Positions 21,707 to 54,525 of a DNA stretch of 64,000 nt are shown piece by piece. How positions within the stretch are numbered: the first letter of the stretch is position 1; the number at the start of each line of letters is the position of its first letter. The notes beneath the pieces were generated by a model. The model ran no database searches. It saw only the letters and a list, made by a program, of their open reading frames with translations, and was not told where the DNA came from. The stretch is taken from positions 1 to 64,000 of the forward strand of contig JAAYLH010000125.1 in assembly GCA_012521995.1 (NCBI GenBank). The letters are read 5' to 3'. Made by a program: the position numbers and the translations under genes. The DNA is from Bacteroidales bacterium. GTDB lineage: Bacteria; Bacteroidota; Bacteroidia; Bacteroidales; UBA7960.

Positions 21707-22342
21707 TCATCCAATGAGCCTGCTGTCCGAAACATTATCCAGGCTCTTGTTGCTTGAGGCCTCAATGGGGTTGTGGAAGGCCATAAATACCAGGATATTT
21801 TCGCCTGCCTTAGCCGGGGGAAGAGCCAGCTCAGCCCGTTTCTCCTTGCGTTGGGCGGCCTGCAGGTTGACGGAACTGTCGAGGCTGGTGTCGTTCATGG
21901 CCAGCAGCATCACCTGGTCGCTCACGCTATAGCGCTTGCCCGGCTCGGGATCGCCCCAGGTAACAACAGCCTTGTTGCCTTCTATGGTCATGGCCACATC
22001 CTGGGCCCAGGACCGCTCGCCCTGGCTGATCACCAGCCAATGCAAATCTTCGGGACTTGCAGCATTGCGATAGTTTACCAGGTTGACCGACATGGCGGCA
22101 TGAAAGGCGCTGCGCCCCTCGGCCTGGGGATTGAAGCCCACACGCACCGCCGACCGGGCCGATTGCATTACCTTCATCACCTTTGAAAAATCGGTCTGCG
22201 CCTGCTTCAGCGCCCCCTGGGCCGGCCGGCGCTTGCCCGAGGGACGGCTGCGCATGATGGTTTTTCCAAACATTTCATAGGCCACTATATTGCCTATCCT
22301 CCCGCTGTAATTGCCCAAGGGGCCCTCTTTTGTCGATGCCAT
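21707..22342 (-). CDS. DUF6266 family protein
   Basis: A 211-residue protein. The N-terminus MASTKEGPLGNYSGRIGNIV, then MFGKTIMRSRPSG and later RVGFNPQAEGRSAFHAAMS match the DUF6266 family as I know it. It is basic at the N-terminus, lacks a signal peptide, and has a beta-rich C-terminal half. Function is unknown. In Bacteroidota the family often occurs in several copies. A well-formed promoter with both boxes lies 45 bases upstream, and behind it sits the phased ACGT array. Confidence 0.82.
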   Translation of the reverse strand: MASTKEGPLGNYSGRIGNIVAYEMFGKTIMRSRPSGKRRPAQGALKQAQTDFSKVMKVMQSARSAVRVGFNPQAEGRSAFHAAMSVNLVNYRNAASPEDLHWLVISQGERSWAQDVAMTIEGNKAVVTWGDPEPGKRYSVSDQVMLLAMNDTSLDSSVNLQAAQRKEKRAELALPPAKAGENILVFMAFHNPIEASSNKSLDNVSDSRLIG

Positions 22343-22386: not shown

Positions 22387-22417
22387 CAAATATAATCAAA
22401 TTTGATAATAAAACAAA
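22387..22417 (-). promoter_or_regulatory. Promoter of the DUF6266 gene
   Basis: On the minus strand the -7 element reads TATATTTG (22387-22394) and the -33 element reads TTTG (22414-22417), 19 bases apart. This is one of the two best promoter matches in the window. Confidence 0.65.
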
Positions 22418-22433
22418 AATAAAACGAATCTGA

Positions 22434-22526
22434 CACGTAATTAAAACGAAGTTTAAACGTGTATGCACGTGTGAACTACGTCTGAACTACGTGTTAACTA
22501 CGTCTGAACTACGTCTGAACTCCGAA
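22434..22526. repeat. Array of ACGT cores at 10-11 base spacing with an 11-base tandem repeat
   Basis: ACGT occurs at 22434, 22457, 22467, 22478, 22489, 22500 and 22511. The last four are exactly 11 bases apart inside a tandem repeat of TGAACTACGTC, with one degenerate fifth unit (22472-22526). Each core is a self-complementary tetramer on the same face of the helix. It lies between the ALDH terminator and the DUF6266 promoter, so a regulatory binding array is possible. Simple slippage is the alternative. Confidence 0.85.
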
Positions 22527-22535
22527 GAGTATATG

Positions 22536-22593
22536 AAGAAAAAAGCAGGAGGCATAGCCCGGCTGTTGAATTTGCCGGGATATGCCTCCTGCT
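22536..22593 (-). terminator. Terminator of the ALDH gene
   Basis: Arms 22544-22563 and 22574-22593 pair over 19 of 20 positions (one G/A mismatch) around a 10-base loop. On the minus strand the stem is followed by a T-rich run (22536-22543), which suits the ALDH gene ending at 22637. Confidence 0.85.
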
Positions 22594-54476: not shown

Positions 54477-54525
54477 AGAAAATTAAATAACGAACAATGA
54501 AAAATGAAAAATGAAAAAAGGCCTT

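Follow-up and report, generated by a model that had tools for sequence, protein, structure and literature searches.

Upstream of a DUF6266 gene in the window, by which we mean the whole 64,000-nucleotide stretch analyzed here, ACGT recurs at a pitch of about one helical turn. Is this block a site for cooperative protein binding or a product of replication slippage, the two origins suggested by a sequence-only reading, or does it belong to something larger than the locus?

A mirror array upstream of the DUF6266 gene

The seven ACGT cores start at 22435, 22457, 22467, 22478, 22489, 22500 and 22511 (motif positions in the window), with core-to-core steps of 22, 10, 11, 11, 11 and 11. Six of these positions stand as first read and the remaining one, previously given as 22434, was off by one; the mostly 11-base spacing is seen in four of the six steps. 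The 11-base tandem of four to five units that had been described is returned by Tandem Repeats Finder as five copies of period 11 at 22467–22521, and its score of 89 is the top of 14 rows in the window. The same program reports a 7-bp tandem repeat, AAAATGA, in 5.6 copies at 54479–54518. ACGT is not enriched across the whole window (81 occurrences versus 92.5 expected from shuffling), hence the clustering itself is the noteworthy point. The array is indeed single in the window; genome-wide, though, there are dozens of comparable sites.

The window array forms half of a larger palindrome, in which a strong arm of five units and a decayed mirror arm flank a centre. The features of the locus are as follows.

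21707–22342, minus strand: DUF6266 gene (PF19781, E 7.6e-18; Pfam profile match)
22387–22417, minus strand: Bacteroidetes-type promoter of the DUF6266 gene, TTTG-N19-TATATTTG, with TTTG at 22414–22417, a 19-bp spacer and TATATTTG at 22387–22394 (read by eye)
22424–22460, minus strand: weak mirror arm, with ACGT at 22457, ACGA at 22446, ACGT at 22435 and ACGA at 22424 (sequence)
22457–22470, no strand: dyad centre ACGTGTATGCACGT, cores 10 bp apart (sequence)
22467–22514, plus strand: strong arm, five ACGT cores at an exact 11-bp pitch (sequence, repeat finder and class-A comparison), with the linkers GTGAACT, CTGAACT, GTTAACT and CTGAACT in that order (sequence)
22515–22525, plus strand: terminal unit of the strong arm, CTGAACTCCGA, in which CCGA replaces ACGT (sequence; end point of class-A copies)
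22535–22592, minus strand: hairpin and T-run after the aldehyde dehydrogenase gene (by eye)

The weak arm keeps the phase of the strong arm with drifted linkers, and the ACGA at 22446 and 22424 are decayed cores. The DUF6266 protein scored 65.2 bits against PF19781 (Pfam cut-off 23.4), which places it in the family. Its promoter, a match to what we take to be the Bacteroidetes-type consensus, begins with TTTG at 22417, 17 bases from the array, the distance reported before. Since the array lies upstream of this promoter, it is outside the transcript of the DUF6266 gene. A terminator scan gave no listing for the hairpin and T-run at 22535–22592.

Five array families are scattered through the genome

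The genome of the window (G000) is a 3.26-Mb draft of 140 contigs, in which we called ORFs by length. Four ACGT at an 11-bp pitch occur 157 times genome-wide and the reversed pattern, with TGCA cores, 0 times; likewise, two class-A units (TGAACTACGTCTGAACTACGT, up to three mismatches) gave 109 matches and their reversed-pattern control 0. The window array is thus one member of a repeat family, class A, scattered through the genome. Class B (unit CTAAGGTACGT, centre ACGTATTTTGTACGT) is scattered as widely. Sites number at least 28 for class A, 25 for class B, 20 for the C122 family, 19 for C93 and 6 for C51. Together these five families occupy at least 91 distinct loci, seven sites being common to A and B; three matches (C4:15822, C4:32662 and C93:81882) were excluded from the C93 family as having a different word. 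All 46 class A/B elements (the window and 45 more) sit in gaps between long ORFs, a short ORF (up to 99 aa) crossing the array at a few of them, and 62 of 66 G000 array loci are flanked by called ORFs on both sides. The dispersal is therefore extragenic.

After leaving out L009 and class-B-like loci, 21 class-A copies could be compared. In the strong arm, ACGT is present at units 0–4 in 18, 21, 21, 21 and 21 copies, and the copies stop at the terminal unit, with ACGT at unit 5 in 1 of 21. The strong arm has five units in 20 of 21 copies, which argues against local slippage. The third linker is mostly GTTAACT, and the recurrence of a position-specific linker order argues for copies made from a master sequence, not for arrays that evolved separately at each site. 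In the weak arm, cores of units 1–3 are conserved at 0.95, 0.95 and 0.90, and linkers at 0.72, 0.65 and 0.67. As this arm was little used in finding copies (though it was scored in the choice of centre), its conservation is an indication, almost free of bias, that both the core and the pitch are important.

In the C122 and C93 families (nine copies each), array boundaries are sharp: conservation exceeds 0.9 inside the ~70-bp array and is near chance shortly outside. In these two best-preserved families the copies are alike in the array and unlike in the flanks, therefore arrays have spread as discrete units, probably by insertion. In some subfamilies, flank similarity extends from about −160 to +200 bp. 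The two arms are complementary, yet they do not match better within a copy than between copies (0.93 versus 0.95, and likewise 0.92 versus 0.94). Hairpin-type covariation is not seen, and selection for an RNA or DNA hairpin was set aside as unsupported.

Array words are paired with DUF6266 genes

Class A has partner genes at C31 and C78 (the DUF6266 gene of the window and its paralogue on contig C78) and class B at C25, and the C122, C93 and C51 families have one gene-bearing site each. For all six of these array-bearing DUF6266 genes, the array word has gene-less copies elsewhere in G000. As in REPIN/RAYT systems, each repeat family has a copy with a cognate gene next to it, for six of six G000 arrays and in Niastella; here that gene is DUF6266. 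An N-domain gene was found at three of the 66 fetched G000 loci (the window, L020 and L058), the gene-bearing C122, C93 and C51 loci having been fetched apart from these. Another DUF6266 gene, on C127, is preceded by a palindrome of its own, and a DUF6266 fragment sits at the edge of C111, where the upstream region is unreadable.

The pairing extends well beyond this genome. Of 59 genomes, PF19781 is present in nine, counting the window's own, and all 4 genomes that have four exact ACGT units at an 11-bp pitch belong to these nine; by our own arithmetic the chance of this overlap is 126/455,126, with three of the four genomes belonging to one genus. Most other DUF6266 genes also have an 11-bp array upstream, often mirror-symmetric and each with a different word. 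We measured upstream periodicity as lag-11 autocorrelation against dinucleotide shuffles. Among relatives, 21 of 29 DUF6266 genes were significant at lag 11 (p ≤ 0.017), L248 and L248b sharing one array. Among further DUF6266 genes across the phylum, 22 of 43 testable genes (of 45) were significant (p ≤ 0.01); lag 11 was the best lag in 16 of these further genes and lag 10 in several others. The phylum total is 43 significant genes of 72 tested. Only one of 46 window genes scored at least 23 of 33, DUF6266 itself. The control set of 62 'other' genes was partly contaminated, its eight high rows being seven DUF6266 genes and one divergent neighbor that shares an array.

At L249, L251, L276, L279 and L289 the upstream repeats score best at a period of 10 bp, not 11, so a 10-bp pitch may serve some DUF6266 genes. 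The consensus-like DUF6266 genes L222–L225 and L231 are preceded by short direct repeats (AAGTCCGTATC / CGTACCAAGTC type), and a similar word occurs in G000 at C4:32662 and C93:81882; perhaps these constitute another small array family. The DUF6266 match of L222 (G003:C22) has a single in-frame TAG.

Across 20 genes, array words track the partner proteins: array similarity correlates with protein identity (Mantel r 0.54, p 0.0002; r 0.52 without pairs above 80 per cent). This correlation could reflect shared descent alone, without recognition. The link between array and DUF6266 gene is real and phylum-wide rather than peculiar to the window, but most copies have no adjoining DUF6266 gene.

Arrays in other genomes and short N-domain proteins

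In Niastella caeni (G094), the word ACAGGGACCTG is found at a DUF6266 gene and at three gene-less sites; it is absent from G000, G062 and G376 and has one 3-mismatch match in G217. G039 comes from a different family of the order. Of its five places with an ACGT array, one is flanked by two divergent DUF6266 genes, and no N-domain gene is present at the three others that were fetched.

A scan of 84,980 genomes gave at least 111 stretches with five ACGT at an 11-bp pitch; those among the matches listed are mostly from Bacteroidales by title. Array words are genome-specific. In MAG RGIG9891, for example, ACGTAGGATAC is present in 10 of 10 fetched arrays, one of which precedes an N-domain gene. 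Of the 37 genomes with such arrays among the matches listed, 30 have no PF19781 gene. Among the same matches, 5 of 111 fetched stretches (L073, L091, L132, L162 and L172) encode an N-domain protein of ~100–130 aa, with an ACGT array upstream of each gene, for instance:

L073:5946–6284: short N-domain gene beside an ACGT array

In MAG CAMJDT, one of three arrays has an N-domain gene. The four short proteins that were scanned (L172 being outside that scan) reached no Pfam family cut-off; nevertheless, a profile of L091, L132, L162 and L172 aligns to the N-terminal 60 residues of DUF6266 with a probability of 91 per cent. Because the short proteins share this domain, it is the N-terminal domain, not the C-terminal part, that goes with arrays. 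Unlike the window, L162 and L172 have a TACCTTTG box upstream of the array, which therefore may be transcribed there as a 5′ leader. A scan of viral contigs gave 41 matches, by eye mostly plain tandem repeats, with an N-domain gene in none. One viral contig ends in a long array (L216:12501–12603) of the word ACGTCCAAGGT, as found in MAG RGIG8161 and strain KHT7.

The DUF6266 protein has no recognizable transposase or DNA-binding identity

For the window protein, PF19781 was the sole Pfam match, and PHROGs, NCBIfam and PADLOC gave none. Nine aligned DUF6266 members have no invariant histidine or tyrosine; on both counts, the partner lacks the identity of a Y1 (HUH) tyrosine transposase. Pfam, NCBIfam and a Foldseek search with a short N-domain model assigned DUF6266-type proteins to no known DNA-binding family. 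That model reached pLDDT 71 (best VIA-align Z 3.4) and had no Foldseek match at E ≤ 0.001 (best 1.3); the single-sequence model of DUF6266 was poor (pLDDT 43). A sequence search of the PDB gave no match, and a literature search found no paper naming DUF6266. A phage or plasmid origin of DUF6266 was considered and rejected, the G049 protein having no match in 50,697 phage and 72,556 plasmid records.

Gap orientation and age of the arrays

G000 arrays (n = 62) lie in 24 convergent, 32 tandem and 6 divergent gaps, versus 14, 49 and 23 for control gaps (n = 86), a convergent excess (p 0.004) and a divergent deficit (p 0.012); with the control restricted to gaps of at least 250 bp, the convergent excess is weak (p 0.07) and the divergent deficit disappears (p 0.70). 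In orientation, the G000 gaps are unlike a set of operators. Outside G000, 80 loci were chosen by record title, with two of three Ignavibacteriales loci included and one Balneolales locus left out. The array is within a called ORF at 16 of the 80, and 46 loci of other Bacteroidota lie in 15 divergent, 24 tandem and 7 convergent gaps; divergent gaps are not avoided there.

Four G000 array loci have counterparts beside orthologous genes in G002 or G003, with flanking proteins 76–93 per cent identical. At these orthologous loci, from three species, the array aligns and much of the intergenic flank does not; L300 is one exact 11-bp unit shorter than its orthologue L310. Some arrays are therefore old and have been kept at orthologous sites, as operators would be. 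Together with the conserved pitch and drifting linkers of the 21 class-A copies, this survival fits the arrangement for cooperative binding proposed from the window alone, the binding itself being putative.

Weighing the explanations

Replication slippage, the other suggestion made for the window site, is disfavored by the five units in 20 of 21 copies, the position-specific third linker and the copies elsewhere. A functionless slippage minisatellite would account for near-identical units, for the orthologue pair that differs by exactly one unit and for long pure arrays in some MAGs. However, unit number in the class-A strong arms does not vary freely, and mirror-image arms, a position-specific third linker and dozens of copies with a control of 0 make this reading very improbable. 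As a sufficient cause for the class-A family, slippage is refuted by unit constancy and dispersed copies. The main rival sees in the DUF6266-type protein a DNA-binding regulator (or nucleoid protein) that controls its own gene, with the arrays as regulon operators under selection rather than selfish DNA. Arrays directly upstream of DUF6266 promoters, core phase kept while linkers drift, orthologous arrays that outlast their flanks in three species, and 15 of 46 arrays in divergent gaps at other Bacteroidota loci all fit such a regulator. On the other hand, only 6 of 62 G000 arrays are in divergent gaps and 24 are in convergent ones, near-identical copies stand in unrelated flanks, and a position-specific linker order recurs across copies; we consider the regulator unlikely, though it deserves serious attention.

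Ordinary MITEs or REPs moved by a RAYT or IS transposase encoded elsewhere, with DUF6266 adjacency incidental, would also be intergenic, palindromic and multi-copy, and CGTC-tagged REPs without a dedicated transposase are described in Bacteroidetes in the part of the source available to us (PMC3733652). This does not account for a separate word, with scattered copies, at every DUF6266 gene tested, or for the phylum-wide association, and we regard it as improbable. We give slightly less credence still to the arrays as targets of a general host factor, one for nucleoid folding, segregation or topology, that acts independently of the neighboring protein. Helical-turn spacing and the 30 of 37 array-bearing genomes, among the matches listed, without PF19781 speak for such a factor; yet several array words coexist in one genome with a DUF6266 gene for each, some PF19781-free genomes have a short N-domain gene beside an array, and the arrays are patchy among relatives (4 of 59 genomes).

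Comparison with known systems

Autoregulated operators of tandem short repeats, spaced by about one helical turn and upstream of the gene, are known from parC/ParR and the met boxes of MetJ. The tandem layout suits cooperative binding, and the position of the window array upstream of the promoter fits. Those systems have one or few sites for one regulator, whereas here there are several families and dozens of copies, and the DUF6266 protein matched no known DNA-binding family in the searches above.

REPIN/RAYT systems consist, in the passages available, of extragenic inverted-repeat units in dozens of copies, with several families per genome and, for each family, a copy beside a single or low-number cognate gene (PMC3116915; PMC8049555). 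The likeness lies in dispersed extragenic inverted repeats, several families, and a cognate gene beside a copy. REPINs, however, are two REP stems and not 11-bp phased arrays; the partner here is PF19781 or in no Pfam family, without a conserved histidine or tyrosine, and hairpin covariation is unsupported in the present arrays. BrickBuilt of Porphyromonas gingivalis, a MITE holding a minisatellite, is another Bacteroidales element that is always intergenic and has a direct-repeat array inside a dispersed unit; as far as its description goes in the accessible text, it has a leader, a tail and IS-like terminal inverted repeats, and the text mentions no cognate gene (PMC4596501), in contrast to the mirror symmetry and DUF6266-type gene of the present arrays. 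CGTC-tagged REPs occur in Bacteroidetes without a dedicated transposase, and they and GTAG-tagged REPs are dispersed extragenic palindromes; the excerpt describes 20–40 bp stem-loops in fixed sequence families (PMC3733652), unlike 11-bp-pitch arrays with genome-specific words. Literature searches on 11-bp arrays in Bacteroidetes gave no paper, and the titles and opening lines of abstracts on REPIN-like and REP repeats in Bacteroidetes and on BrickBuilt describe no such system.

A putative partnership of arrays and DUF6266-type proteins

Gene-less mirror arrays, several populations per genome and a low-copy partner gene for each point to a REPIN/RAYT-like organization. We lean towards a REPIN/RAYT-like population of mirror arrays whose partner has no recognizable transposase identity. 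Array families with their own word, and often their own DUF6266-type gene, occur in many Bacteroidota, and this looks like an undescribed counterpart of REPIN/RAYT.

Each population in a genome has its own unit sequence and, wherever this could be traced, a partner gene for either DUF6266 or the shorter N-domain protein, and the promoter region of that gene carries an array of the population. In the proposed system, the N-terminal domain would bind the units with mirror symmetry, at roughly one unit for each helical turn; binding of the array by DUF6266 is common to the REPIN-like and regulator readings, and we infer it in both. The array at the partner gene would set the partner's expression, and the partner might maintain or copy gene-less arrays in trans, by analogy with what RAYTs are thought to do for REPINs. 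No histidine or tyrosine is conserved in the DUF6266 alignment, so DNA cleavage may fall to replication or recombination enzymes of the host.

We tentatively propose, with somewhat less confidence, that Bacteroidota have a second, independently evolved kind of repeat population, in which protein–word pairs co-diversify, several of them non-interacting in one genome, and in which a protein other than a known transposase recognizes the word and keeps or copies the population. If this is true, a second such partnership, found in a different phylum and built on an unrelated protein, would mean that such partnerships arise repeatedly, and it would give a function to DUF6266, a protein family named in no paper of the literature searched. 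If DUF6266 is instead a family of regulators, its coexisting protein–word pairs would be a natural series for the DNA-recognition code of an uncharacterized domain.
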